Shown: positions 486-10,994 of the stretch, piece by piece
How the letters are laid out: each line of letters begins with the position of its first letter
How positions within the stretch are numbered: the first letter of the stretch is position 1
DNA from: Thermococci archaeon
Lineage (GTDB): Archaea; Methanobacteriota_B; Thermococci; Thermococcales; Thermococcaceae
Length of the DNA: 13,711 nucleotides
Assembly (NCBI GenBank): GCA_003663525.1
Contig: QMUF01000027.1
Location: 1 to 13,711 of the forward strand
Direction of reading: 5' to 3'
Notes under the pieces: generated by a model
The model's input: only the letters and a program-made list of their open reading frames with translations
Databases searched by the model: none
What the model was told of the DNA's origin: nothing
Position numbers and translations under genes: made by a program

Positions 486-794
486 TCACTTAAATATCTC
501 ATCTCCACTTTTTCCCTCAAGTCCTGCATGGATGTCAAACCTAACCACGCCCACAGGAACTTTTCCTTCCACTGCTTCCACAATTTTTGCAACACCTTTA
601 TGACCAAAGCCACCACATAGTTCAATTGCTCCTATACCATCATTTACAAGTTCCTTTGCAATTTTGCATGCCTCTTCATAGTCTTTAACTCCAACCACGT
701 GAAGCTCTACAACTGGCGTTGAAATAATTGCCCTATGCTTCTCAGGCTCCGCTTCGGGAGCCAAGAACATAAAAACTGCTTTAAGCTTTCCCAT
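486..794 (-). CDS. DUF6506 family protein
   Basis: This 102-residue protein matches my recollection of the small, uncharacterised DUF6506 family. It opens with MGKLKAVFMFLAPEAEPEKH, then has a VVGVKDYEEA segment, the signature IELCGGFGHKGVAKI, the segment GKVPVGVVRFDIH and a GKSGDEIF C-terminus. The alternating strand and helix pattern suggests a compact alpha/beta (ferredoxin-like or small barrel-derived) fold. I chose ATG at 794 because it follows a near-perfect ribosome site (GGAGATGAT) three bases upstream; an upstream ATG at 821 would add nine residues that read like intergenic sequence. It lies 27 bases after the membrane protein gene and is the last confident gene of the minus-strand E1 operon, which ties it to the 2-oxoacid or acetoin-like pathway. 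No catalytic residues are known to me; the conserved Cys, Gly and His in ELCGGFGHKG are candidates. Function unknown. Confidence 0.85.
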   Translation of the reverse strand: MGKLKAVFMFLAPEAEPEKHRAIISTPVVELHVVGVKDYEEACKIAKELVNDGIGAIELCGGFGHKGVAKIVEAVEGKVPVGVVRFDIHAGLEGKSGDEIFK

Positions 795-821
795 TATATC
801 ATCTCCTAAACTCCTCTTCAT

Positions 822-1859
822 TCAGTCTTCCCATGACCATGATTGCGGAAATCCCGTTCTCTTGGACGGGAAGCATAGAGGTATCGCGAATCCCCAATGA
901 ACACCAGCATATGCAAGTACAAATGCTTGCATTAGGTAGTAAGTATCTTCCGGACTTGTGGGAGGCCAGATATGCTTTGTTATTGCAATACTCACAAGAA
1001 CTGCAATTATTTGGATTATGATAACTCCGATGAAACCTACAATTGCTCCCAATGTAGGCGGCTTTATCTTTCTCCACGGCCATCCTTCGAATATTACGAA
1101 GACGCTCCAGTTAAAGCTACATCCTGCTCCGAACCATATTAGGAAATAAAGGGAATAACCACTTGTCAGGGACGCATAAGGGGCATCCAGCGAGAAATTA
1201 AAATGGCCCAGCAACGATGCGATTCCAACTGCCAAGAAGACCACTGCCATGTTTATGACCCAGAATGCTATTCCTCCCTCATATCCTTTCATATCCTTAC
1301 TCCAGTATGCTATAATTCCCGAGCCTAGGAGCCATTGTGTTGGAATAAACCACCACGCAGGCATGAGACCTGGCTTTGGGAGAGCTATTATGGTAATTAG
1401 AACTAGGGAATACCAGAGCATTAAATCCAGCACTGCCTTTTTAGGAGCAGGCGTCTCTCCCCATAGGTGGAAGGAAAAATCTGTGACTACCACCCAGAAG
1501 AACAAACCTGCCAATATCGGGAATCCATAGGTTTGAAGGTCGACCAGCTTGCTTGCTAGATACCAGCATACTACACCCAATACCCATGAAACACCGAGGG
1601 TTGCAATTCCACGGCTCCACCAGTTTTCAACTTTGTTAAAGGGCCAATACCCCCACACAACAAATGCAAAGACCCACCATAAAGCCCATAGATACGTTCC
1701 AACGATATCAAGCCATTCTGCCCCACATATGGAAACTCTAGTGAATATCAAGTGGCCAATCCACCAATTTAAAACAGAGGCTATGATAACGGCCAACATT
1801 ACAGGCCAATGATAACCCCATTTTTGCTCCTCTTTCACTTCCTCAGGCGTTCTCGTCAC
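822..1859 (-). CDS. Tryptophan-rich polytopic membrane protein, unknown function
   Basis: This 345-residue protein has about ten hydrophobic segments, at roughly residues 20-39, 49-74, 84-105, 112-133, 143-161, 170-187, 196-218, 236-260, 270-294 and 308-330. A charged 18-residue N-terminus precedes them, so no cleavable signal peptide is expected. It contains 30 tryptophans (8.7 percent), many in pairs (NWW, LWW, NWW, AWW), which is very unusual. I do not recognise a family. Position, between a VOC-fold gene (45 bases upstream) and DUF6506 (27 bases downstream) in an E1 operon, suggests a transporter or membrane-bound enzyme of the same pathway. Aromatic-lined pockets occur in carriers for cationic or hydrophobic substrates, but that is only an analogy. 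The start is GTG at 1859, with only a weak AGAAG upstream; translation may be coupled to the preceding gene. A Met near residue 21 would cut into the first membrane segment, so it is less likely. Confidence 0.8.
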   Translation of the reverse strand: MTRTPEEVKEEQKWGYHWPVMLAVIIASVLNWWIGHLIFTRVSICGAEWLDIVGTYLWALWWVFAFVVWGYWPFNKVENWWSRGIATLGVSWVLGVVCWYLASKLVDLQTYGFPILAGLFFWVVVTDFSFHLWGETPAPKKAVLDLMLWYSLVLITIIALPKPGLMPAWWFIPTQWLLGSGIIAYWSKDMKGYEGGIAFWVINMAVVFLAVGIASLLGHFNFSLDAPYASLTSGYSLYFLIWFGAGCSFNWSVFVIFEGWPWRKIKPPTLGAIVGFIGVIIIQIIAVLVSIAITKHIWPPTSPEDTYYLMQAFVLAYAGVHWGFAIPLCFPSKRTGFPQSWSWED

Positions 1860-1904: not shown

Positions 1905-2417
1905 TCAGCCTATCCAAGGGATTTTAGCCCCGGGCGGATATACTTCATCAGGTTCTGGCCACTTGAAGCTCTCAGGTGGCTTGTAGATCTCAGCAATAAC
2001 CTTTAAGTCTTCCTCAGTGGTTAAGTAAGTGTAGATGAAGTCACACCATGTGCCACCTTGTAAAATTTTGTGACCCTTAGACCTGAAAAAGTTCATGGCT
2101 TCATCATAGTCTTCAACCCCAAAGGCTACATGGTGTAGTCCTTCGCCATGGGTGCGTAAAAATTCTGCGTAAATGCTTTTGTCATCTTTAGGTTCTATCA
2201 GTTCCCATTGGACTTTCCCAATGTTACATAGGGCGAGACGCATAGCATAATCCTCTCTTTTATCTCTGATGATCATATCTTTCACTGTTTCTGGGTTAAA
2301 TTCATATATTGCCCACGGGCCTATCCCATACTCGTCATAGTATATTTTTACAGCTTCATCTAAATTTTTCACAACAACAGCAACCTGAAGGACATCCGTA
2401 AATATAGGTTTTTCCAC
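1905..2417 (-). CDS. VOC (glyoxalase/methylmalonyl-CoA epimerase-like) family protein
   Basis: This is a 170-residue vicinal-oxygen-chelate protein. The N-terminal module has QVAVVVKNLDEAVKIYYDEY followed by GIGPW, typical of the glyoxalase_4 or methylmalonyl-CoA-epimerase-like group. The second module has GEGLHHVAFGVEDYDEAM and ends with IAEIYKPP. Candidate metal ligands are Gln11, Glu73 (or Gln70), His95 or His96, and Glu143, matching the usual pattern of one ligand per strand. Such enzymes bind a divalent metal and act on an oxyanion or enolate next to a carbonyl (epimerisation, isomerisation, lyase or dioxygenase chemistry). I chose GTG at 2417 because GGAGGT lies six bases upstream; a start at 2513 would overlap the E1 beta gene and add 32 basic non-family residues. 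It sits 34 bases after E1 beta in the same operon, so it may process the E1 substrate or product. True epimerase activity is not assured. Confidence 0.85.
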   Translation of the reverse strand: MEKPIFTDVLQVAVVVKNLDEAVKIYYDEYGIGPWAIYEFNPETVKDMIIRDKREDYAMRLALCNIGKVQWELIEPKDDKSIYAEFLRTHGEGLHHVAFGVEDYDEAMNFFRSKGHKILQGGTWCDFIYTYLTTEEDLKVIAEIYKPPESFKWPEPDEVYPPGAKIPWIG

Positions 2418-2451
2418 AATCCTACCTCCTTTTTCTAAAAAATTGGGAAGA

Positions 2452-3435
2452 TCAAAGGATCTCCCTAACAGCCTTCTCAATCTTCTCAGTGCTTGGTATC
2501 CACTCACTCTCAAGAACAGGGCTGAAGGGAACGGGTGTTGCTGGTGGTGTCACTATCTTTACAGGAGCTTTTAAGCTATCAAAGGCCTTATTAACAGCTA
2601 AAGCCGCTACATCCGTGGCAAAGCCACACCTTGGATATCCCTCATCAACCACAACAAGCTTTCCAGTCTTCTTTATGGAATTTATGATAGTGTCCACATC
2701 CAGTGGAACTATAGTCCTCGGATCAACGACCTCAACACTTATACCGTCTTTCTCAAGATTCTCTGCCACTTCTAAGGATTTGTGAACCATTGCTGCAGTT
2801 GCAACAATCGTGACATCTTTTCCTTCCCTCTTCACGTCCGCTTCCCCTAAGGGGATTGAGTACGGTTCCTCTGGGACTTCCCCTTTAACCGCGTATAATG
2901 CCTTATGTTCAATGAATATCACGGGGTCATCATCCTCTATTGAAGATATCAAGAGTCCCTTTGCATCATAAGGTGTTGAGGGCATCACCACCTTAAGACC
3001 TGGTACGTGAGCGAATATTGCATGCAGGGATTGTGAGTGCTGTGCTGCCGCTGAAAAACCAGCTCCACACACGGTTCTTAAAACCATGGAAATCTTAGCT
3101 TTTCCTCCAAACATGTACCTCATCTTTGCAGCTTGGTTGTAAATCTGGTCAAACGTAACTCCAAGAAAGTCTATGAACATCAACTCAACAACAGGTCTTA
3201 GCAAACCTGTAGCCGCTGCTCCCACTCCAGTTCCTACAAATCCGCTCTCAGCAATTGGAGTGTCTATAACTCTCTCAGGCCCGTATTTATCATAAAGCCC
3301 TGCAGTTACCCCATAAATTCCACCATAAACTCCAACATCTTCACCCATTACTACTACTTTTGGATCTTTTGACATCTCGTAGTCTAGTGCTTCATTCAAC
3401 GCCTGAGCAAAGGTGATCTCTCTCACCACTGCCAT
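2452..3435 (-). CDS. 2-oxoacid/acetoin dehydrogenase E1 component, beta subunit (set 1)
   Basis: This 327-residue protein is the beta half of an alpha2beta2 thiamine-diphosphate E1. It opens with REITFAQALNEALDYEM, then VVVMGEDVGVYGGIYGVTAGL, the family signature TPIAESGFVGTGVGAAATGL, and PVVELMFIDFLGVTFDQIYNQAAKMRYM. The C-terminal transketolase-like domain includes VEVVDPRTIVPLD and VVVDEGYPRCGF. The subunit binds the aminopyrimidine side of the cofactor and the potassium-binding loop, and with E1 alpha decarboxylates the 2-oxoacid (or cleaves acetoin) and reductively acylates the lipoyl carrier. The ATG at 3435 follows GGGGGTG and overlaps the last 13 bases of E1 alpha, so the two are translationally coupled. 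The protein is close to AcoB and PdhB. Compared with set 2 it lacks a nine-residue insert ahead of the EVPEEPY segment, which argues for a different partner or substrate. Confidence 0.93.
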   Translation of the reverse strand: MAVVREITFAQALNEALDYEMSKDPKVVVMGEDVGVYGGIYGVTAGLYDKYGPERVIDTPIAESGFVGTGVGAAATGLLRPVVELMFIDFLGVTFDQIYNQAAKMRYMFGGKAKISMVLRTVCGAGFSAAAQHSQSLHAIFAHVPGLKVVMPSTPYDAKGLLISSIEDDDPVIFIEHKALYAVKGEVPEEPYSIPLGEADVKREGKDVTIVATAAMVHKSLEVAENLEKDGISVEVVDPRTIVPLDVDTIINSIKKTGKLVVVDEGYPRCGFATDVAALAVNKAFDSLKAPVKIVTPPATPVPFSPVLESEWIPSTEKIEKAVREIL

Positions 3436-4421
3436 ACTAACACCCCCTTGGTTGGAGTAGAGAACACATCTTCAAGAACCTCCTCCTTAGAAGGCCATGG
3501 ACTCTCCTCAGCAAACTTGATAGCTTCTTCAATCTCCTTCTTTACCTTCTCCCAGATTGAATCAAGCTCCTCCTTTGTTACAATTCCTTTCTCCAGAAGC
3601 TTCTCCTCAAAGAGTTTTATGGGGTCCTTGTTCTTCTTCCACCATTCCACCTCTTCCTTTGACCTGTACACCTGAGGATCTCCTTCAAAATGTCCTCTGA
3701 ATCTGTAAGTTTTTGCTTCTATTAGAGTGGGGCCTTCTCCCCTTCTGGCTCTCTCAATAGCCTCCTTAGCCACTTCATAAACCGCTAGAACATCCTGCCC
3801 GTCCACGCTTACGCCAGGAATTCCATAAGCCTTTCCTCTCTCTGCAACACTCTTAATTGTCTGCTGTTTGTCGTATGAAAGAGATATCTGATATTGGTTG
3901 TTTTCACATACAAACACCACTGGGAGCTTCAATATTGATGCTAAGTTTATTCCCTCGTGGAAGTTCTGCTGGTTGGAAGCACCATCACCAAAGAATGCCA
4001 CTGCAACATTGTCCAAACCATTTAGCTTTATCCCCAAACCAGCGCCTACAGCATGTGGGATTCCCCCACCGACTATTCCATTTGCCCCCAACTCACCGAC
4101 GTCCAAATCAGCTATATGCATGGAGCCACCTTTTCCCTTTCCGCTTCCCGTTTTCTTTCCAAAAAGCTCAGCCATTGATGCTTTAATATCTCCACCTTTC
4201 GCGACATAATGTCCGTGTCCCCTGTGGGTGCTGGTAATGTAATCCTCTTTCCTCAAATTCGCCATGACACCTACAGCAACTGCCTCCTCACCTACATACA
4301 GGTGTACAAATCCAGGTATTTTGCCCTGAGCAAAGAGCTCTGCAACCCTTTCCTCATGCTCTCTTATCTTCACCATCATTTCATACATCCACAACAACAT
4401 TTCCTTGGATATTTCCTCCAT
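3423..4421 (-). CDS. 2-oxoacid/acetoin dehydrogenase E1 component, alpha subunit (set 1)
   Basis: This 332-residue thiamine-diphosphate E1 alpha subunit is AcoA/PdhA-like. Visible motifs are GKIPGFVHLYVGEEAVAVGV (residues 33-52), TSTHRGHGHYVAKG (63-76), KGKGGSMH (95-102) and the cofactor motif GDGASN (145-150) with ENN (173-175), fitting the GDG...N magnesium-pyrophosphate signature. The GFVHLY loop and THRGHGH resemble acetoin-dehydrogenase alpha subunits, and an acoX-like gene is transcribed divergently nearby, so acetoin is a reasonable but unproven substrate; pyruvate and branched 2-oxoacids remain possible. The start at 4421 has AGGAGAGG eight bases upstream; the upstream ATG at 4472 would add a non-family 17-residue stretch and lacks such a site. 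It heads the minus-strand operon that continues with E1 beta, VOC, membrane protein and DUF6506. A strong TATA box lies at 4524-4531. Confidence 0.93.
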   Translation of the reverse strand: MEEISKEMLLWMYEMMVKIREHEERVAELFAQGKIPGFVHLYVGEEAVAVGVMANLRKEDYITSTHRGHGHYVAKGGDIKASMAELFGKKTGSGKGKGGSMHIADLDVGELGANGIVGGGIPHAVGAGLGIKLNGLDNVAVAFFGDGASNQQNFHEGINLASILKLPVVFVCENNQYQISLSYDKQQTIKSVAERGKAYGIPGVSVDGQDVLAVYEVAKEAIERARRGEGPTLIEAKTYRFRGHFEGDPQVYRSKEEVEWWKKNKDPIKLFEEKLLEKGIVTKEELDSIWEKVKKEIEEAIKFAEESPWPSKEEVLEDVFSTPTKGVLVWQW

Positions 4422-4523
4422 ACTTTTCGCCTCTCCTGAGTTTAGATTTAAAAAAGCACTTGATTTTTGCAAATGATTAAAACATAGCCTAGATTTGACA
4501 CTAGAGATTTTACATTGAAGATG

Positions 4524-4538
4524 TATATATACTTTTCC
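4524..4538 (-). promoter_or_regulatory. Archaeal promoter (BRE plus TATA) for the set-1 E1 operon
   Basis: Read on the minus strand, GGAAAAG directly precedes TATATATA (TATA at 4524-4531, BRE at about 4532-4538). The usual 25-27 base spacing places transcription start near 4500, giving a leader of about 79 bases before the ATG at 4421. TATATATA is self-complementary, but the purine-rich BRE is on the minus-strand side only, so I assign it to the minus direction. Confidence 0.55.
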
Positions 4539-4555
4539 ATTTTTTATTCCAAAAG

Positions 4556-4595
4556 CTTATTAAACTTAAATGAAAAATAACGATATGGTGATGGT
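4556..4595 (+). promoter_or_regulatory. Promoter and ribosome site for the lipoyl/E2 operon
   Basis: CCAAAAGC precedes a TATA-like TTATTAAA at 4557-4564. Standard spacing puts transcription start near 4587, right at the ribosome-site-like GGTGATGGT (4587-4595) that abuts the ATG at 4596. The leader would be only about nine bases. It lies back to back with the minus-strand promoter, about 30 bases away, so the two operons could be co-regulated by one factor bound between them. The exact TATA call is tentative. Confidence 0.4.
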
Positions 4596-4844
4596 ATGAC
4601 CAAAGTAAATATCATTATGCCAAAATTAGGTATGACAATGAAAAAAGGTACTATCGTAGAGTGGAAGAAAAAAGTTGGAGAAAAGGTAGAGAAGGATGAG
4701 GTAATTGCCATAGTTGAGTCCGAGAAATTGAGTGGAGAAGTTAAAGCCCCGACTTCAGGAGTTTTAGCAGAAGTACTTCACGCCGTTGGTGAAGAAGTTC
4801 CCGTAGGGGAAGCAATAGCGATAATAGAAACCGAGGAGAGCTGA
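4596..4844 (+). CDS. Free-standing lipoyl-domain protein (detached E2 lipoyl domain, set 1)
   Basis: This 82-residue protein is a complete single biotinyl/lipoyl domain and nothing else. MPKLGMTMKKGTIVEWKKKV opens the domain, IVESEKLSGEVKAPTSGVL carries the lipoylation hairpin with Lys44 as the modified residue, and VPVGEAIAIIE closes it. Lipoyl-Lys44 would swing acyl groups from E1 to the E2 acyltransferase and then be reoxidised by E3. In most organisms this domain is fused to the N-terminus of E2; here a TGA at 4842-4844 and a new ATG at 4846 separate it from the E2 core. The split is clean, not a frameshift: E2 has its own start with a GAGGAGAG site. The E-S-E-K-L-S surroundings resemble E2 lipoyl domains, not glycine-cleavage H protein or biotin carriers (which have MKM). 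Confidence 0.92.
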   Translation: MTKVNIIMPKLGMTMKKGTIVEWKKKVGEKVEKDEVIAIVESEKLSGEVKAPTSGVLAEVLHAVGEEVPVGEAIAIIETEES

Positions 4845-4845
4845 A

Positions 4846-5664
4846 ATGGTAAGTGAAGAGGTCAGAATGATAGCCGAGCAGTATGATATTGACCTTTCAA
4901 AGATAAAAGGCTCAGGAGTTAATGGCGAGGTTACACTTGAAGACCTCGAAAAATACATACGAGAACACTTCTTCCCAAAAGTAAAAGAAGAGAAGAAAGT
5001 TTTTGGGATTAGAAAAGTTATAGCAGACAGGCTTTCAAAGAGCTACAGGGAGGCCGTCCATGTAACCCTCAATATGGAAACAGAGATGGACAACCTCATT
5101 CAAATGAGAAAAAAGCTCACTGAAAAACTTGGAGAAAAGCCCTCATACACTGTTCTGATGTTGAAGTGCATTGCAAAGGCCATCAGGGATTTCATAGAGA
5201 TCAATGCAACAATGGAAAAGGAAAAGATAGTGATCTATGATAATGTGAATATAAACGTGGCCATCGACAGCCCAATAGGCTTGATAACCCCCGTAATTAG
5301 AGATGTTGATAAAAAGGCCCTTAAGGAGCTTTTAAAAGACTATGCAGACATAGTTGAGAGGGCAAAGAAGGGTGCACTTAAAGAAAAGGATTTTGTAGGA
5401 GGAACTTTCACGATTACAAATCTCGGAATGTTTGGGGTGGATTCCTTCACCCCAATAATAAATCCCCCCCAAATCGCGATTTTAGGTTTGAATAGAATAA
5501 CACAAAAGCCAGTCATGAAAAATGGGGAGATAAAAATTGCCAGTGTAATGGTGCTCTCCCTAACCTTTGATCACAGAGCAATAGATGGAGCTCCGGCTGC
5601 AAGGTTCTTGGAAAGGGCTAAATACTACCTAGAACATCCAGAGAAGGTGTTTGAAGTTGAGTGA
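4846..5664 (+). CDS. 2-oxoacid dehydrogenase E2 acyltransferase lacking its own lipoyl domain
   Basis: This 272-residue protein begins directly with a peripheral-subunit-binding domain (residues about 1-37: VRMIAEQYDIDLSKIKGSGV, then NGEVTLEDLEKYI), a short charged linker, and the chloramphenicol-acetyltransferase-like catalytic domain from about residue 48 (FGIRKVIADRLSKSY). The active-site motif DHRAIDGAPAARFL places the catalytic His at 243 and Asp at 247; FTITNLGMFGVDSFTPIINP is also typical. It should form the oligomeric E2 core, bind E1 and/or E3, and transfer acyl groups from lipoyl-lysine to CoA. Its lipoyl domain is a separate protein encoded just upstream. It is shorter than usual E2 (about 400 residues) for that reason and is otherwise intact. 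It is the only E2 in the window, although two E1 pairs and two lipoyl carriers are present. Its stop overlaps the next gene's start region. Confidence 0.93.
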   Translation: MVSEEVRMIAEQYDIDLSKIKGSGVNGEVTLEDLEKYIREHFFPKVKEEKKVFGIRKVIADRLSKSYREAVHVTLNMETEMDNLIQMRKKLTEKLGEKPSYTVLMLKCIAKAIRDFIEINATMEKEKIVIYDNVNINVAIDSPIGLITPVIRDVDKKALKELLKDYADIVERAKKGALKEKDFVGGTFTITNLGMFGVDSFTPIINPPQIAILGLNRITQKPVMKNGEIKIASVMVLSLTFDHRAIDGAPAARFLERAKYYLEHPEKVFEVE

Positions 5665-6031
5665 ATGGGGAAGATATGTTATCGAGATAGGAATGGGTGT
5701 AGACCAGCATGGACAAGATCCTACTAAAGCAGCAATAAAAGCCATAAAAGATGCAATAACAAGAATCTGTACAGTTGGACTTCTTGAGCTTTTTGAGCTT
5801 GAGTTTGAGAAAGACGTGAAAGCAGAAGTCATCATAGGAGTGCCTTATCCCCAAAAAGTTGAGGTAGAGAAAGTTAAGGAAGCTATTCCTTTGCCGTGTA
5901 AAAAGGTTATTAACGTTGTTGAAGGAGGATTAAAAGGTCCTGGAATAGCTCTTAAAGAGTTTGGAGATAAAACAAACGAAATGCTAATAGCCATAGCGTT
6001 CATTACCCTTCATGTGAGGAGAGGGAAATAA
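5657..6031 (+). CDS. Lin0512 family protein
   Basis: This 124-residue protein is of the uncharacterised Lin0512 type. The signature is RYVIEIGMGVDQHGQDPTKA near the N-terminus, followed by KAIKDAITRICTVGLLELFE, a central VIIGVPYPQKVEVEKVKEAI, and the C-terminal VINVVEGGLKGPG, which is typical of the family. It is predicted to be soluble and alpha/beta. TTG at 5657 is preferred because AAGGTG lies seven bases upstream; TTG at 5651 sits too close to that site and would add only two residues. The start lies inside the end of the E2 gene, and the TAA stop overlaps the ATG of the acoX-like gene (TAATG), so all four plus-strand genes form a coupled operon. Function is unknown; its placement between E2 and AcoX argues for a role in the same catabolic system. 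Confidence 0.85.
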   Translation: MSEWGRYVIEIGMGVDQHGQDPTKAAIKAIKDAITRICTVGLLELFELEFEKDVKAEVIIGVPYPQKVEVEKVKEAIPLPCKKVINVVEGGLKGPGIALKEFGDKTNEMLIAIAFITLHVRRGK

Positions 6032-7011
6032 TGGGAAAAATCACCGTAGGAATAATAGCAAATCCTGAATCAGGGAGGGATATAAGGCGTTTAATCGCCC
6101 ATGCAAGTGTCTTTGATAACATGGAGAAGGTCAACATAGTTAAAAGACTCCTACTCATAATGCAAGAACTAGGAGTAGAGAAAGTTCTGGCAATGCCCGA
6201 AACATTTGGAATAGTGCCTGCTGCACTTCGTGCGGTAGGAGAACACATAGCCATGGAAGTTGAGATGCTCCCAATGAAAGTTTTGGGAGATTGGAGGGAT
6301 ACATTAAAGGCAGCCGAGATCATGAAGGACAGAGTAAGCGTGATAATCGTCATTGGAGGAGATGGTACTAATAGAGTTGTAGCAAAGGCCTCTGGAGATA
6401 TTCCCACAATGCCCATCTCTACAGGCACTAACAATGTCTTTCCCTACATGATAGAGGCCACTATAGCCGGAGCTACTGTCTCGGCAATAGCCACCGGCAT
6501 GGTTAAGCCTGAGGAAGGAACCTATAAAACAAAAAGAATTGAACTTTATGAGGATGGTAAACTTAAGGACATTGCCCTTATAGATGCTGTTGCAACACTC
6601 CACTCTTTCAAAGGATCCAAAGCCGTGTGGAAACCAGAATATTTGAGAGAGATAGTGGCAAGTATTTCCTTACCTTATAATATCGGTCTGAGCTCAATCC
6701 CTGGAATCTTGAAGGAGATTACCGAACAAGATGACTTAGGAATATATGTAGAGCTTGGAGGAGAAAAAGGGGTAAAAGCTCCCATAGCTCCTGGAGTATT
6801 TAGGGCAATAAAGGTCAAAGAAACAAAAGTCCTAGAACTGAACGAGGAAGTCGAGCTAAAAACCTCACCTTCTCTTCTGGCCCTTGATGGAGAAAGAGAA
6901 ACCGAGATGAAAGGAAGAATTACAGCAAAGATAACAAGAAATGGCCCAAGAGTTATAGACTACAAAAAGACTCTAAAACTAGCGGCTGAGAGGGGTTTCT
7001 TCGACGATTAG
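6031..7011 (+). CDS. acoX: AcoX-like ATP-NAD kinase family protein
   Basis: This 326-residue protein has the NAD-kinase/diacylglycerol-kinase fold. IGIIANPESGRDIR-like sequence appears at the N-terminus (here VGIIANPESGRDIRRLI, residues 6-22), the nucleotide motif VIGGDGTNR lies at about residues 107-115, and PISTGTNNVFP at 128-138. The C-terminal half is strand-rich, with LLALDGERETEMKGRI resembling the substrate-binding domain of NAD kinases. AcoX is classically encoded with acetoin dehydrogenase genes, but its reaction there is unknown; it is distinct from the housekeeping NAD kinase. The ATG overlaps the preceding TAA, with GGAGAGGG upstream. The TAG stop at 7009-7011 overlaps the stop of the convergent lplA. 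The association supports acetoin-like chemistry for the set-1 E1, without proving it. Confidence 0.88.
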   Translation: MGKITVGIIANPESGRDIRRLIAHASVFDNMEKVNIVKRLLLIMQELGVEKVLAMPETFGIVPAALRAVGEHIAMEVEMLPMKVLGDWRDTLKAAEIMKDRVSVIIVIGGDGTNRVVAKASGDIPTMPISTGTNNVFPYMIEATIAGATVSAIATGMVKPEEGTYKTKRIELYEDGKLKDIALIDAVATLHSFKGSKAVWKPEYLREIVASISLPYNIGLSSIPGILKEITEQDDLGIYVELGGEKGVKAPIAPGVFRAIKVKETKVLELNEEVELKTSPSLLALDGERETEMKGRITAKITRNGPRVIDYKKTLKLAAERGFFDD

Positions 7012-7793
7012 CTAAGTATTTCCTTTATTTTTTTGTTTATTTCTGTCTCATTTTTTATTGAACCCCCAAAGTTCCACTCGTCTTTAGAGTACTTCTCCTC
7101 ATACAAAATTTCCGCTATTTTACTCTCTTCTCTCACAGGTTCTTCAAAAGTTGAAGGAGCTGACAAAACCCTTGAATACCCCCATATCAATGCTTCAACA
7201 ACGTGATCCATGGAAATATTTTTTATAAAACTAGTGAGATTTGTCACTCTGTACTTAACTGGATCAAAGCTATGAACCTTTGGAATCTTCAAAAGGGAAT
7301 AAAGCATTTGCAGGTTGGAATCTACCAAAATGGAGCCATGTAAAAAAAGAACCTCCCACCTCAACCCTGCTGCAGTGCCAGAAACTTTTCTTTCATTAAC
7401 AACAACATCGTTAGTGTTTTTTAAATATGGCCTCAGGCCAAGTTTCTTCAGAGCAAGTAGGGTCCCTTTTAGAAGATGAGCATAAAGATAGTCTAGTGGA
7501 TACCTTACGTCCCTTTTAATGACAAGAGAATAATTTATACACCCCTCATCATGATAAACTGTTCCTCCTCCAGTAAATCGTCTTATTATCGGAAATCGAA
7601 ACCTATTAGCATTTTCTAGGTTAACATCCTCTTCAACTTTCATAAATCGCCCCAAAATCAGAGCTTTTTTATTTCTCCATATCCTCAGTGTGTCACTAAT
7701 AGTATCAACACCCCTAACCCTTGCAAGAGCTTCTTCAAAGGCTATGTTCAAATAAGGGTCAGGATACTCACTGAACAAAACTCTCAAACTCAT
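7008..7793 (-). CDS. lplA: Lipoate-protein ligase A (catalytic domain)
   Basis: This 261-residue protein belongs to the LplA/BirA catalytic family. Motifs are IRRFTGGGTVYHDEG (residues about 69-83), the lipoate-site RRxTGGGxVxH signature; NDVVVNERKVSGTAAGLR (around 107-124) with the catalytic Lys of KVSG; FLHGSILVD; and a YSKDEWNFGG C-terminus. The enzyme adenylates lipoate (or octanoate-derived lipoyl precursors) and attaches it to lipoyl lysines. The obvious clients are the two free lipoyl domains in this window. It lacks the C-terminal accessory domain of E. coli LplA, which is often a separate protein (LplB) in archaea, so an unlinked partner may be needed. It follows the second lipoyl gene by 41 bases. 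No ribosome site is visible, but TTTTAATTA lies about 26 bases upstream of the ATG, suggesting leaderless expression from its own promoter. Confidence 0.9.
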   Translation of the reverse strand: MSLRVLFSEYPDPYLNIAFEEALARVRGVDTISDTLRIWRNKKALILGRFMKVEEDVNLENANRFRFPIIRRFTGGGTVYHDEGCINYSLVIKRDVRYPLDYLYAHLLKGTLLALKKLGLRPYLKNTNDVVVNERKVSGTAAGLRWEVLFLHGSILVDSNLQMLYSLLKIPKVHSFDPVKYRVTNLTSFIKNISMDHVVEALIWGYSRVLSAPSTFEEPVREESKIAEILYEEKYSKDEWNFGGSIKNETEINKKIKEILS

Positions 7794-7799
7794 GATAAA

Positions 7800-7826
7800 A
7801 ATTAAGAAAAAAGAATAATTAAAAGT
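7800..7826 (-). terminator. T-rich terminator after the second lipoyl gene, overlapping an lplA promoter
   Basis: On the minus strand the sequence after the lipoyl stop contains ATTCTTTTTTCTTAATTTTTA, two oligo-T runs of the kind that stop archaeal RNA polymerase. The adjoining TTTTAATTA (plus positions 7816-7824) is placed correctly to act as a TATA box for leaderless transcription of lplA starting at about 7794. The same AT tract could therefore both reduce read-through and initiate anew. Confidence 0.3.
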
Positions 7827-7834
7827 TTTGAAAA

Positions 7835-8071
7835 CTATGCAGTTTCTACAACAGCTATTACATCTCCCTGAGACACTTCACCATTTTCAGGCACTAATAT
7901 CTTAAGCTTGCCACTTGCTGGAGCTTTTACAAGCACTGTGACTTTTTCTATCATAACTTCGGCTATTTCTTCGCCTTCTTCTACGACATCTCCATCCTTC
8001 TTATACCACTGGTTTACTACACCTTTTTTGTCCTCCTGACTAACTATTGGAACCTTGACTTCAATTTCCAT
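7835..8071 (-). CDS. Free-standing lipoyl-domain protein (set 2)
   Basis: This 78-residue single lipoyl domain reads MEIEVKVPIVSQEDKKGVVN, then a YKKDGDVVEEGEEIAEVMIEKVTV segment with Lys43 as the lipoylated residue, and APASGKLKILVPENGEVSQG at the C-terminal half. The domain is complete but divergent. The usual MPxLG opening is replaced by VPIVSQED, and the modified Lys is flanked by I-E-K-V-T instead of the E-S-E-K-L-S of the first carrier. The ATG at 8071 has GGAGGGG nearby and starts 21 bases after the E1 beta stop. It presumably takes acyl groups from the set-2 E1 and, with no second E2 here, would deliver them to the E2 encoded at 4846-5664 or to one elsewhere. A biotin carrier is unlikely because there is no MKM and lplA follows directly. 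Confidence 0.9.
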   Translation of the reverse strand: MEIEVKVPIVSQEDKKGVVNQWYKKDGDVVEEGEEIAEVMIEKVTVLVKAPASGKLKILVPENGEVSQGDVIAVVETA

Positions 8072-8092
8072 TCTTTCCCCTCCGATGTTAAG

Positions 8093-9091
8093 TCACATTA
8101 TGCTCTTTACAGCGTTGATGATTTTCTCTTTGTCAGGAAGGACATACTTCTCTAAAACCCTGCTGTAAGGAACGGGAACATCTGGATAAGCAACTCTAAC
8201 TGGTGGTGCCTCCAATGAGATTCCATTCTCAACAACTGTGGCAATGATTTCTCCACTCATACCATAGCTCCTGTAGTCCTCATCTGCTATTACCAAGCGA
8301 CCGGTCTTCTTTACAGACTCTAAGAGAGTTTTCTTGTCCAATGGAACTAGACTCCTCAAATCAATAACCTCTGCACTCATACCTTCCTTTTCGAGCTCTT
8401 CTGCGGCCCATATTCCCTCATGCACAGTCTTAGCAACACCGACAATCGTTACATCACTTCCCTCTCTAACCACTTTTGCCTCTCCAATTGGCACAGTATA
8501 GGGCTCTTCCGGAACTTCAACAGCAGCCTCTGGTGGAGAGGGCATCCATCCAAGTCCCATAAGGCCCTTGTGGAAGAAGTACATCACCGGATTGTCATCT
8601 CTAATTGCCGAAATCATGAGACCTTTTGCATCGTATGAGTTCGAGGGAATCACTATCTTCAAGCCTGGGACGTGTGCAAAGAGTCCATAGAGGCATTGAG
8701 AGTGTTGAGCCGCATCACTGTATCCTCCACCCATTGCAGTTGTTATAACTATTGGCATCTTTACCTGCCCACCCGACATGTAGTGGGCCTTTGCTATGTG
8801 GTTGTAAATCTGATCCATAGCGACTCCAAAGAAATCAACGAACATGAGCTCCACTATTGGTCTCATCCCTTTTGATGCCGCTCCCAAAGCAGCCCCTATA
8901 AAAGCGGACTCAGTTATTGGAGTGTCCCTAACTCTCTCAGGTCCAAATTTCTCAAGAAGACCAGAGGTTGCACCAAAGATTCCTCCATACGCTCCAATGT
9001 CCTCGCCCATGACAAATACATTTTTATCTCTCTCCATTTCCTGAGCTATTGCTTCAGAAATAGCTTTATACATGGGAAGTTTTCTTGCCAT
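8093..9091 (-). CDS. 2-oxoacid dehydrogenase E1 component, beta subunit (set 2)
   Basis: This 332-residue transketolase-like E1 beta is paralogous to the protein at 2452-3435. It has VFVMGEDIGAYGGIFGATSG, TPITESAFIGAALGAASKGM, PIVELMFVDFFGVAMDQIYN and the C-terminal AEVIDLRSLVPLD and VIADEDYRSYGM. It pairs with E1 alpha to decarboxylate a 2-oxoacid and reductively acylate a lipoyl carrier. A nine-residue insert rich in Pro and Met (GWMPSPPEAAV) precedes EVPEEPY, and the set-1 EGYPRCG is DEDYRSYG here, so the two pairs probably differ in substrate or partner. ATG at 9091 follows GGGGGGTGA and the E1 alpha stop by one base; the TTG start at 9109 adds six residues inside the E1 alpha gene and is unnecessary. 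Confidence 0.92.
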   Translation of the reverse strand: MARKLPMYKAISEAIAQEMERDKNVFVMGEDIGAYGGIFGATSGLLEKFGPERVRDTPITESAFIGAALGAASKGMRPIVELMFVDFFGVAMDQIYNHIAKAHYMSGGQVKMPIVITTAMGGGYSDAAQHSQCLYGLFAHVPGLKIVIPSNSYDAKGLMISAIRDDNPVMYFFHKGLMGLGWMPSPPEAAVEVPEEPYTVPIGEAKVVREGSDVTIVGVAKTVHEGIWAAEELEKEGMSAEVIDLRSLVPLDKKTLLESVKKTGRLVIADEDYRSYGMSGEIIATVVENGISLEAPPVRVAYPDVPVPYSRVLEKYVLPDKEKIINAVKSIM

Positions 9092-9092
9092 T

Positions 9093-10100
9093 TCACTCAC
9101 CCCCCGCAAAAACGGCCTTTAAAGCTTCTTCGGGCTCAGGATATGGGCTGTTTACAGCAAAATCAATAGCCTCTTGAACTTCCTTAATATTCTCCTCTTT
9201 GATCTTGTTGAGTTCCTCCTCTGTGACAATACCTTTTTCTAAGAGTGCCTTTTCGAAATTTAAGAGTGGATCTTTTTGCTTAGCAAGCTCTAGATCTTCC
9301 TTGGGCCTGTAATGCTGTGGATCACCCTCAAAGTGACCCCTCAATCTATAAACTTTTATCTCAATCAAGGTGGGCCCTTCTCCCCTTCTTGCTCTCTCAA
9401 CAGCTTCTTTGGCCACTTCATAAACCGCTATGACGTCAGTTCCATCCACACTCACACCTGGAACTCCATAAGCAGCAGCTCTCTCGCTGTTCTTTGAAAC
9501 TGCCGTGGATTTCTCTTTCGGAACGGATATAGCCCAGCTGTTATCTTCTATTACAAAAATCACTGGTAGTTTCCAAATTGCAGCTAAGTTAAGGGCCTCA
9601 TGAAAGGTTCCCTGGTTAGCAGCACCATCTCCACCAACAGCAACAGCAACGTAGTCTTCTCCCTTTAGTTTTGCAGCTATTCCCACACCAACGGCTTGTG
9701 GAAAGCTTGCACCAACAATTCCACTACAACTGAAGTTTTGGTATGCATCAAATAAGTGCATATGGCCACCCTTTCCTCCTGATAATCCCGTAGCTTTTCC
9801 AAAAATTTCAGCAGTCATCTTCTTTAGATCAACCCCCTTTGCTATTGCAAAGTGATGGGCCCTATGAGTTCCTACTACAGCGTCTTCAGGTTTCAAATGC
9901 AGGCAAACGCCAACTGCTGCTGATTCCTGACCAGAAGATAGGTGGAGTTCTCCTGGAATTGGGCCTGCAGATATATCGAATCTCGGAGTCTTTCCTTCAT
10001 AGTACCACTTTGCTAGTGTTTCTTCGTAGGTTCTAATCTTATGCATGGTTTTGTATATCTCAAGCAGGGTTTCCTTCGGAATTTCTTCTACTTTTTCCAT
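9093..10100 (-). CDS. 2-oxoacid dehydrogenase E1 component, alpha subunit (set 2)
   Basis: This 335-residue thiamine-diphosphate E1 alpha has GTHRAHHFAIAKG (residues 77-89), GGKGGHMHLFD (108-118), the cofactor motif GDGAAN (157-162) and EDN (185-187). Relative to the set-1 paralogue it has about ten extra residues near the N-terminus (RFDISAGPIPGELHLSSGQE, 40-59) just where the substrate channel of E1 is usually formed, and THRGHGH is replaced by THRAHHF. The reaction type is secure; the substrate is not. ATG at 10100 has GAGGTG six bases upstream; the longer frame from 10199 adds a hydrophobic AT-rich-derived stretch that is really leader sequence. It heads an operon of E1 alpha, E1 beta and lipoyl carrier, followed by lplA. 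Confidence 0.92.
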   Translation of the reverse strand: MEKVEEIPKETLLEIYKTMHKIRTYEETLAKWYYEGKTPRFDISAGPIPGELHLSSGQESAAVGVCLHLKPEDAVVGTHRAHHFAIAKGVDLKKMTAEIFGKATGLSGGKGGHMHLFDAYQNFSCSGIVGASFPQAVGVGIAAKLKGEDYVAVAVGGDGAANQGTFHEALNLAAIWKLPVIFVIEDNSWAISVPKEKSTAVSKNSERAAAYGVPGVSVDGTDVIAVYEVAKEAVERARRGEGPTLIEIKVYRLRGHFEGDPQHYRPKEDLELAKQKDPLLNFEKALLEKGIVTEEELNKIKEENIKEVQEAIDFAVNSPYPEPEEALKAVFAGGE

Positions 10101-10205: not shown

Positions 10206-10994
10206 TTAAACAATCCGCAACTCCATAGTATCTCCAATCTCAAAATCCCCACCAATCAGCTTAAGCTTCTCTTCATTGCAGAAAACTCCAACACCCTTGA
10301 CCTTAATTCCATTAGCAAAAACATCAAAATCTGCCTTGAAGACTCCAACTCCATTGGGTAAAACTTCACTGGCTTCCACGATCTTCCCAAAGAGTTCGGC
10401 TTTTCCTTCGTTGAATATTGCACCATAGTGATAGTGGGGCAGCCCTCCTTCAATGTTGTCAAAGGGCGTCATTCCCCTGCCGCTTTTTCGAAGCGACTTT
10501 AACCAGATGTAGTGCTCTTCCTTCTCAATAACTTCAAATTCCACTCCTTTAATAATGGGAACAAGACCTCTAACTTCTGGGAAAAGTGTAATCCCACCTC
10601 TAGCTCTATACCTGTCATTACAGGACCTTACTTCAAAATGCGCATGCTTATCGCTCCAAGGAGAGAAAAATCCAGAATAGATTAACCTTCCGATTTCATC
10701 ACCAAGAAAGACTTTTTCACCAATTTTAATCTTCGGCTCTACATGAAGGACCTTCAAACAAAAATCCTCAACTTCAAAAATTAGAAGGTAGTCTTCGCTA
10801 ACTGGAATGTATCGGGGAGTCTTTATCTTCCTTACCTCAACCAATTTACCCTCCTCAAATGGAAATAAAGCTTTTTCATCAAAGTAGACATCCACAGCGG
10901 TAGCGAGCTTGTGAGGAATATACGGAGTGTCAAAAAAGGAATACCTCACATCCGGAATTTCGAGATAAAGACCGTTTACCGTGGCTATCCTCAT
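10206..10994 (-). CDS. M23 peptidase-like (duplicated hybrid motif) protein
   Basis: This 262-residue soluble protein of no assigned function has a middle section that resembles the M23/LytM metallopeptidase fold. PHKLATAVDVYF (His28, Asp35) is followed by LFPFEEGKLVEVR, then VLHVEPKIKIGEKVFLGDEI with IGRLIYSGFF and DKHAHFEVR (His117, His119). In M23 enzymes the zinc is held by HxxxD and the second His of HxH; here the first motif has a longer spacing, so metal binding is plausible and peptidase activity uncertain. Thermococcales lack murein, so a classical cell-wall role is unlikely; the fold is also related to lipoyl-like barrels. The C-terminal 120 residues are strand-rich and unrecognised. 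The ATG at 10994 directly follows the TGA of the SPL-type gene, so the two are translationally coupled. No signal peptide is visible, implying a cytoplasmic role. Confidence 0.6.
   Translation of the reverse strand: MRIATVNGLYLEIPDVRYSFFDTPYIPHKLATAVDVYFDEKALFPFEEGKLVEVRKIKTPRYIPVSEDYLLIFEVEDFCLKVLHVEPKIKIGEKVFLGDEIGRLIYSGFFSPWSDKHAHFEVRSCNDRYRARGGITLFPEVRGLVPIIKGVEFEVIEKEEHYIWLKSLRKSGRGMTPFDNIEGGLPHYHYGAIFNEGKAELFGKIVEASEVLPNGVGVFKADFDVFANGIKVKGVGVFCNEEKLKLIGGDFEIGDTMELRIV

Follow-up and report, generated by a model that had tools for sequence, protein, structure and literature searches.

A putative modular dehydrogenase complex with one lipoyl-free E2 and several E1-carrier cassettes in a Thermococci archaeon

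How could two E1 enzymes and two free lipoyl carriers work around a single acyltransferase (E2), and what would re-oxidise the carriers when no E3 is recognised beside them? This question is raised by contig QMUF01000027.1 of the draft genome GCA_003663525.1 (1.62 Mb, 83% complete) from a Thermococci archaeon; the whole contig of 13,711 nucleotides (C27) was analysed and is referred to as the window. Textbook complexes join the lipoyl arm, E2 and E3. Herein, we propose, for the heat-loving, anaerobic Thermococcales that have such a locus, a modular dehydrogenase complex in which one lipoyl-free E2 hub would be served by cassettes, each consisting of an E1 pair and its own free carrier, and we assign this reading, drawn from sequence comparison, a probability of about 0.68. 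First, each E1 would cleave its substrate with thiamine diphosphate and reductively acylate its own carrier. Second, the carrier would hand the acyl group to the common E2, giving acyl-coenzyme A (acyl-CoA). Third, the reduced carrier, a small free protein like the glycine-cleavage H protein, would be re-oxidised by an unlinked, non-classical disulfide oxidoreductase. In some genomes, an optional third cassette might be added, for which an organic acid imported by its TRAP transporter would be the substrate. A shared E2 is the reading that we favour as the best, and physical sharing is its prediction.

The single E2 and its E1-carrier cassettes

The central genes of the cluster are listed below, with the families and motifs matched.

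2452..3435, minus strand: E1b1, E1 beta of set 1, acetoin-dehydrogenase type (PF02779/PF02780; DTPIAE and AQHSQ motifs)
3423..4421, minus strand: E1a1, E1 alpha of set 1 (PF00676, 1.2e-97; GDGASN and GHFEGD motifs)
4596..4844, plus strand: Lip1, free lipoyl-domain protein, apparently cognate to set 1 (PF00364, 1.9e-18)
4846..5664, plus strand: E2 acyltransferase of 272 amino acids (PF02817, 32.6 bits; PF00198, 4.5e-80; HRAIDG at residue 243)
5651..6031, plus strand: Lin0512 family protein behind E2 (PF09585, 1.6e-32)
6031..7011, plus strand: AcoX-like NAD-kinase-fold protein (PF01513, 5e-9)
7008..7793, minus strand: LplA-type ligase, N-terminal catalytic domain only (PF21948, 3.3e-44)
7835..8071, minus strand: Lip2, free lipoyl-domain protein, apparently cognate to set 2 (PF00364, 6.5e-13)
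8093..9091, minus strand: E1b2, E1 beta of set 2 (PF02779/PF02780)
9093..10100, minus strand: E1a2, E1 alpha of set 2 (PF00676, 4.6e-87; GDGAAN and GHFEGD motifs)

Thus, the two E1 pairs, two lipoyl proteins, one E2 and lplA described in an earlier note on this DNA are open frames in place, and their families were matched. That note had also called the E2 a core; the catalytic domain is indeed present, but the chain is not only a core, since an N-terminal subunit-binding domain (PF02817) precedes it. Besides these two domains, a weak PF00302 overlap was observed, and no lipoyl domain was matched inside the chain of 272 residues, Lip1 and Lip2 being separate genes. From left to right, DUF6506, membrane protein, VOC, E1b1 and E1a1 genes lie on the minus strand; Lip1, E2, Lin0512 and the AcoX-like gene diverge from them across 174 bases on the plus strand, and LplA, Lip2, E1b2 and E1a2 follow on the minus strand. 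The runs are tight, with neighbours that overlap or are separated by at most 45 bases. The start of E1b2 is probably the ATG at 9091, as read from the translation; the searches with this protein were run on 8093-9094, one residue longer than 8093-9091. Both E1 sets belong to the two-subunit families PF00676 and PF02779/PF02780 and carry GDG..N, DTPI.E and AQHSQ, which we take to be the thiamine diphosphate motif and the sites of the catalytic Glu and His, and the sets are clearly distinct in sequence (E1a1/E1a2 55%, E1b1/E1b2 52% and Lip1/Lip2 43% identity, the last over 72 columns).

Several results from a survey of 94 Thermococcaceae genomes carry the argument for two E1s around one E2. First, the own draft holds a single PF00198 gene, 20 of the 94 genomes hold one copy each, and a second PF00198 gene was found in none at a threshold of E 0.001. 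Second, three types of E1 alpha were observed, namely set 2 in 15 genomes (88-100% identical to the query, the own genome included), set 1 in 19 (55-59%) and a third type in three (47-48%; G047, G053 and G084), ten weak matches (E 8e-4 to 9e-5) being omitted from these counts. The strong E1 alpha matches per E2-bearing genome range from none (in the decayed G016) up to three, and in the genome of the window the E1 types outnumber the E2s. Third, among the 74 high-quality genomes (completeness of 90% or more, contamination of 5% or less), set 2 is present in 10, set 1 in 14 and E2 in 15, and all 10 set-2 genomes also hold set 1 and the single E2. The association of set 2 with E2 in this subset (Fisher's exact p = 4.2e-9, kinship ignored) says only that the scatter is not random, because kinship was not corrected for. 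In all 94 genomes, set 2 was accompanied by E2 in 14 of 15 cases; in the exception (G083, 77% complete), neither set 1 nor E2 was found, and its 4.1 kb contig begins 61 bases before AcoX, so that E2 would fall outside the contig end. The locus is patchy, since G074, G077 and G081, all from the same genus as the window, have neither E1 nor E2.

Linkage was examined in 27 stretches (20 from 18 genomes and seven further), and the loci of named relatives were viewed too. The E2 is 80-88% identical to that of the four named relatives found, all of which are metagenome-assembled genomes of Thermococcales, which places the window organism in this order. The same genes recur in the same order in relatives, so that the layout of the window is not due to chance. 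Lip1 stands immediately 5' of E2 in all 20 E2-bearing genomes. In the linkage sample, the E2 loci read Lip1-E2-(Lin0512)-AcoX facing LplA, with E1a1-E1b1 divergent; the exceptions are G016, without set 1, and G003 and G085, in which the locus lies on two contigs. Set 2 was observed in two placements, both within the E2 locus and with different gene orders, that is, at the LplA side (the window, G075, G076, G078, G079, G080, G082, G083, G084 and G085) or at the set-1 side, past DUF6506 and an OsmC gene (G003, G031, G034, G043 and G047). Lip2 is present in 15/15 set-2 genomes, also in G016 and G064, and partially in G093. Traces of loss were also observed. The locus of G016 (L100:7114-11247) has decayed, E1a1, E1b1 and E1a2 being lost and E1b2 short; what remains is E2, the two lipoyl genes and an LplA matched in two pieces. 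In G093, a Lip2 piece (L099:4394-4528) without set 2 is perhaps the remnant of a lost cassette. An E1b2 end with Lip2 lies near a contig end in G064, which was counted neither as set 2 nor as set 3.

A third cassette (set 3) was found in which no E2 lies inside the block.

L088:5053-10243 (G084): Lip3, TRAP transporter, E1a3 and E1b3
L093:430-5583 (G047): Lip3, TRAP transporter, E1a3 and E1b3

In G084, the order is E1a2-E1b2-Lip2, Lip3, the TRAP genes DctP, DctQ and DctM, E1a3, E1b3 and an HTH_10 protein, followed by LplA and the E2 operon. In G047, the Lip3-TRAP-E1a3-E1b3 block is on contig C55, which opens with a Lip2-like tail; there, some 300 bases match part of the set-2 contig, close to its end, at 93% identity and not as the same sequence, and a second strain or a copy is therefore possible. 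In addition, part of DctM with E1a3 and E1b3 was found on a 3.4 kb contig of G053, and Lip3 with the TRAP subunit DctP near a contig end of G064.

The relation between each E1 and its carrier was addressed using small, midpoint-rooted trees with long reference branches (30 E1 alpha, 30 E1 beta and 27 lipoyl rows). The set-2 proteins split off with support of 100/100 (E1a2), 100/100 (E1b2) and 97/93 (Lip2), on a side shared with clusters of Phaeobacter, Paracoccus, Roseibium, Sphingomonas, Rhodococcus and haloarchaea; set 1 and Lip1 are on the other side, together with the lipoyl domains of full-length E2s. The division between sets 1 and 2 is thus the same for both E1 subunits and for the carriers, which shows common descent of E1 and carrier in these two sets and makes it likely that a carrier of its own goes with either E1. 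The interchangeable carriers that the earlier note had put forward were accordingly rejected on the topology of the three trees.

Set 2 is, by this comparison, a member of a wider group of E1/E1/free-lipoyl/mini-E2 clusters from Rhodobacterales and other alphaproteobacteria, Rhodococcus and haloarchaea, for which, to our knowledge, there is no established name. Nine such clusters, picked from the best rows among 714 plasmid records with a match, were opened; seven carry their own mini E2 of 226-271 amino acids after the lipoyl gene, showing that a split lipoyl protein is not peculiar to Thermococcales. E1a2, E1b2 and Lip2 share the tree side of this group as well as its free lipoyl protein, and a lipoate ligase or LipA lies alongside in two of the nine. 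Unlike this group, the window has no second E2, LplA follows Lip2, and the genome holds one PF00198 gene, so that the E2 of set 2 is what is missing in the window organism.

The strongest alternative, which we nevertheless consider unlikely, is that two separate systems lie side by side, an acetoin-type complex of set 1, Lip1 and E2, and an independent set 2 with Lip2, which would feed another transferase or act as a lipoyl-linked oxidoreductase or carboligase. The distinct clade of set 2 with its own carrier is consistent with such a separation, as are the remaining two of the nine opened clusters, Haladaptatus plasmid loci with E1/E1/lipoyl genes and no E2 annotated alongside, although these hosts may have an E2 elsewhere. 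However, the company of E2 in all set-2 genomes but the one whose contig is cut next to AcoX, and the lack of a second PF00198 gene in the genomes searched, argue for a shared E2.

Several points weigh against E2 sharing by the cassettes. The co-occurrence counts ignore shared ancestry. A transferase of the alpha/beta-hydrolase type would be missed by PF00198, and a search of 13 genomes of the genus with NF011457 yielded nothing above the model's cut-off, a weak test because none of 14 control genomes passed either. In G053 (73% complete), set 3 is present and no E2 was found. The carrier of set 3 is assigned by gene order only, since the trees disagree, with E1a3 grouping on the acetoin-type side, E1b3 with two pyruvate dehydrogenase-type rows (100/97), and Lip3 unresolved near Lip1. 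Finally, the E2 tree gives no supported origin and does not tell from which set the E2 came.

Probable substrates of the E1 sets

The earlier note had taken both E1s to use 2-oxoacids, and this is doubtful, since set 1 resembles acetoin dehydrogenase (AcoABCL/AcoX) in its tree position, its GHFEGD motif and its AcoX neighbour. In the trees, both E1 subunits of set 1 fall with acetoin-type proteins of Enterococcus and Paracoccus, the beta subunit with two acetoin-type E1 beta at 94/92 and the alpha subunit more weakly, at 84/82, in an open fork that also holds set 3; the two acetoin-type reference rows of these trees sit on long branches. In addition, E1a1 is 56.4% identical to an Enterococcus E1 alpha located between lpdA and, further on, a butanediol dehydrogenase. 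A NAD kinase gene of the AcoX type precedes E1 in the Paracoccus cluster (L107), together with 2,3-butanediol dehydrogenase, and acoX has been described as a predicted NAD kinase of the acetoin cluster in the part of the source available (PMC9676059). Unlike the acetoin dehydrogenase clusters, the window encodes the lipoyl domain as a protein by itself, lacks AcoL/E3 and butanediol dehydrogenase genes, and has a second E1 set and Lin0512 in addition; for AcoL/E3, none was found among the window genes searched, and relatives were screened with the E3 model only genome-wide.

GHFEGD is found in both sets of the window, GHFIGD or GHFVGD stands in its place in set 3, and GHSKSD in a Priestia protein annotated as pdhA and in a Rhizobium protein. 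We infer that the loop at this position reads the type of substrate. The catalytic-type motifs are kept in the compared rows of all three sets. On these comparisons, acetoin or a related acyloin is the most likely substrate of set 1, and set 2 would act on another hydroxyketone or a 2-oxoacid. Among the titles listed by literature search, none deals with an acetoin dehydrogenase of Thermococcus, acetoin is not mentioned in the accessible part of one article (PMC4030962), and no substrate has been identified for the acetoin-like E1s oadhAB2 and oadhAB3 of Haloferax volcanii, as far as the available portion of that report goes (PMC8305020).

The genes behind E2 had not been weighed in the earlier note. 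The AcoX-like protein is at most 37.6% identical to plasmid-borne relatives (among the 20 rows listed), and no solved structure related to AcoX by sequence was found. Lin0512 was found in 15 of the 94 genomes, all of them E2-bearing and with the gene adjoining E2 by position; it was not found in the E2-bearing G016, G031, G034, G043 and G085 (the contig of G085 being cut), and is thus not essential. No match to Lin0512 was found in plasmids, and its sole solved-structure relative by sequence is 3c8l, termed an FtsZ-like protein of unknown function.

Electron exit from the carriers

In agreement with the earlier note, no E3 was observed among the window genes searched, and the genome search for further E2 and E3 genes which that note had proposed returned neither a second E2 nor an E3-type protein in the own draft. 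Neither of the two PF02852 proteins of this draft was recognised as E3-type; one is a CoA-disulfide reductase over its cut-off, the other a CoADR/NOX-like protein below cut-off, and both have a single N-terminal Cys by reading. None of the 94 genomes passes the cut-off of the E3 model TIGR01350, a result that was down-weighted because a clear operonic E3 from a related lineage (L119) also falls below it, with 360 bits against 408.8.

In each genome, up to 15 candidates were scored with the E3 model, and the places given herein are those among the matches listed. Eleven such places score 357-402 bits over a full-length match. Nine of them show CVN.GC, an upstream frame extension having hidden the N-terminus in the other two, and a vicinal Cys pair was read at the end of each of the eleven. 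With this pair, and as the three proteins run against NCBIfam (L063, L064 and L066) exceed the mercuric reductase cut-off, the type was rejected as E3. Mercuric-reductase-type proteins are thus present in several Thermococcaceae. A second look-alike type was found in five places among the matches listed, at 315-332 bits, with CALRGC in the four read; the best NCBIfam score of those run (L074 and L077) was to a glutathione-reductase model, below its cut-off, and in genomes that have it this type might serve to oxidise lipoamide. Of the 15 E2-bearing genomes of high quality, G016, G075, G078 and G093 have the first, mercuric type, and G076, G080 and G084 the CALRGC type, the look-alikes of these seven being assigned by model (four run) or by motif; in eight (G031, G034, G043, G047, G079, G087, G089 and G090), no E3-type enzyme was recognised. 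The best E3-model matches in these eight genomes have values of 1e-42 to 4e-47, and the listed matches begin at model position 98-99, which we take to lie past the redox-active cysteines.

Outside the family, a canonical operon was found in G113 and G114, which belong to another family of the same class. It has the same component types in the textbook order E1-E1-E2-E3-LplA, with an E1 alpha 58-59% identical to E1a1 and an E3 carrying GGTCLNWGCVPSK in both (L119 and L120), suggesting that an E3 of the ordinary form is visible when it is there. Unlike the window, this operon encodes a full-length E2 (526 amino acids in L119, with lipoyl, two binding-domain stretches and catalytic domain, and 543 in L120) and has GHSRFD in L119. 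In a third family of the class (G104, L124), E1-E1-fused E2 (399 amino acids) and a ligase were observed, and no E3-type cysteine motif was present within the 15 kb read, indicating that E3 is not always linked in this class.

A bolder form of the modular complex may be considered, which is tentative and to which we would not give even odds. It would be an open, expandable platform, in which E1-carrier cassettes for different substrates would have been gained and lost around the E2 hub in evolution, and freely diffusing carriers would pass electrons to a general thiol network instead of E3. The candidates for this network would be thioredoxin reductase, relatives of CoA-disulfide reductase and, where present, an OsmC protein, and the oxidant of the carriers would be the same one that serves the glycine-cleavage H protein. 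Thermococcales are known to possess thioredoxin reductase and CoA-disulfide reductase (PMC7278568). If this platform were real, obligate anaerobes would perform lipoate-based oxidation without E3.

A second alternative, which we hold to be improbable, regards both sets as ordinary E1s for pyruvate or branched-chain 2-oxoacids, the split of the lipoyl domain as a trivial gene fission and the normal E3 as missed. The closest NCBIfam models are indeed those of pyruvate dehydrogenase, with 377 and 334 bits for the alpha subunits (below the cut-off of 393.85) and 384.7 and 352.7 bits for the beta subunits (above the cut-off of 321); moreover, the own genome is merely 83% complete, and the operonic E3 under the cut-off means that the cut-off alone is no proof of absence. 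However, the GHFEGD-type motifs of the three sets differ from the GHSKSD of the Priestia and Rhizobium proteins, and the late-starting E3-model matches of the eight genomes do not agree with a missed E3. That set 2 is a decaying passenger retained by chance beside the E2 locus, as the truncated E1b2 of G016 and the lone Lip2 piece of G093 might suggest, is very improbable, since E1a2 is stop-free and 88-100% identical across 15 genomes from three genera (one copy cut by a contig end), in two gene orders and with its motifs kept in the rows compared.

Accessory genes, known parallels and meaning

Three further genes, at the set-1 end of the window, appear to be accessory.

486..821, minus strand: DUF6506 protein, accessory (PF20116, 3e-39), near set 1 in 15/27 stretches
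822..1859, minus strand: membrane protein of unknown family, variable accessory and possible transporter, in 4/27 stretches
1905..2432, minus strand: VOC/methylmalonyl-CoA-epimerase-like protein behind set 1, variable accessory (PF13669, 8.5e-17)

No Pfam or NCBIfam match was obtained for the conserved membrane protein, and its predicted structure (mean predicted local distance difference test score, pLDDT, 41) is too poor for use. Four of the 27 stretches contain the VOC protein, which is broken into two pieces in one case, and a fifth stretch has a short fragment of it; further VOC genes lie near the set-2-type E1 of two alphaproteobacteria (L110:5317-5895 and L108:10970-11500). Upstream of set 2, a protein without a Pfam match (10206-10994), with a radical SAM neighbour, occurs in 7/27 stretches. 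An OsmC-family gene, not present in the window, adjoins DUF6506 in 9/27 stretches (e.g. L085:12665-13135). The L085 protein is above the Pfam OsmC cut-off and below the NCBIfam subfamily cut-offs, with two Cys by reading, and a link of this gene to lipoyl redox is possible; in Xylella, lipoylated proteins act as reductants of Ohr, a member of the Ohr/OsmC family (PMC5962072).

As for lipoylation, contig C66 of the genome encodes another, divergent LplA-type ligase (32% identity to that of the window), and C1 a biotin-ligase-like protein; the window LplA is possibly dedicated to this cluster. The accessible part of a study in T. kodakarensis describes a characterised two-part ligase and LipS1/LipS2 (PMC10332631). 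GcvH, the glycine cleavage H protein, is encoded on C94 of the same genome. Like this protein, Lip1 and Lip2 would be free lipoyl carriers moving between enzymes; unlike them, it belongs to the PF01597 model and has different partners. An unattached lipoyl domain has reportedly been seen in a Haloferax operon.

The sharing of an E2 is itself already known in human and corynebacterial complexes. According to one paper (PMC8146983), human 2-oxoadipate dehydrogenase (DHTKD1), for which no separate E2 is known, works with the E2 of the 2-oxoglutarate complex (OGDH), and in corynebacteria it is E2p that supplies the lipoyl groups on which OdhA depends. These hybrids are similar to the window in that an E1 without its own E2 stands beside an E2-holding complex, but in them the lipoyl domain is on the shared E2 and an E3 is present, in contrast to the own free carriers and the lack of a recognised E3 described here. 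A 2014 survey reported E2 in only three Thermococcus species, at least in the part consulted (PMC3904984). What seems new is the arrangement of several E1-carrier cassettes round one lipoyl-free E2 without a recognised E3, a layout that none of the titles listed by literature search names. The loose carriers, one for each E1, make it testable whether a single E2 can work with more than one free carrier, and by what the dihydrolipoyl groups of Thermococcales are oxidised. If the sharing holds, the locus would represent a shared and modular form of a metabolic machine known from textbooks.

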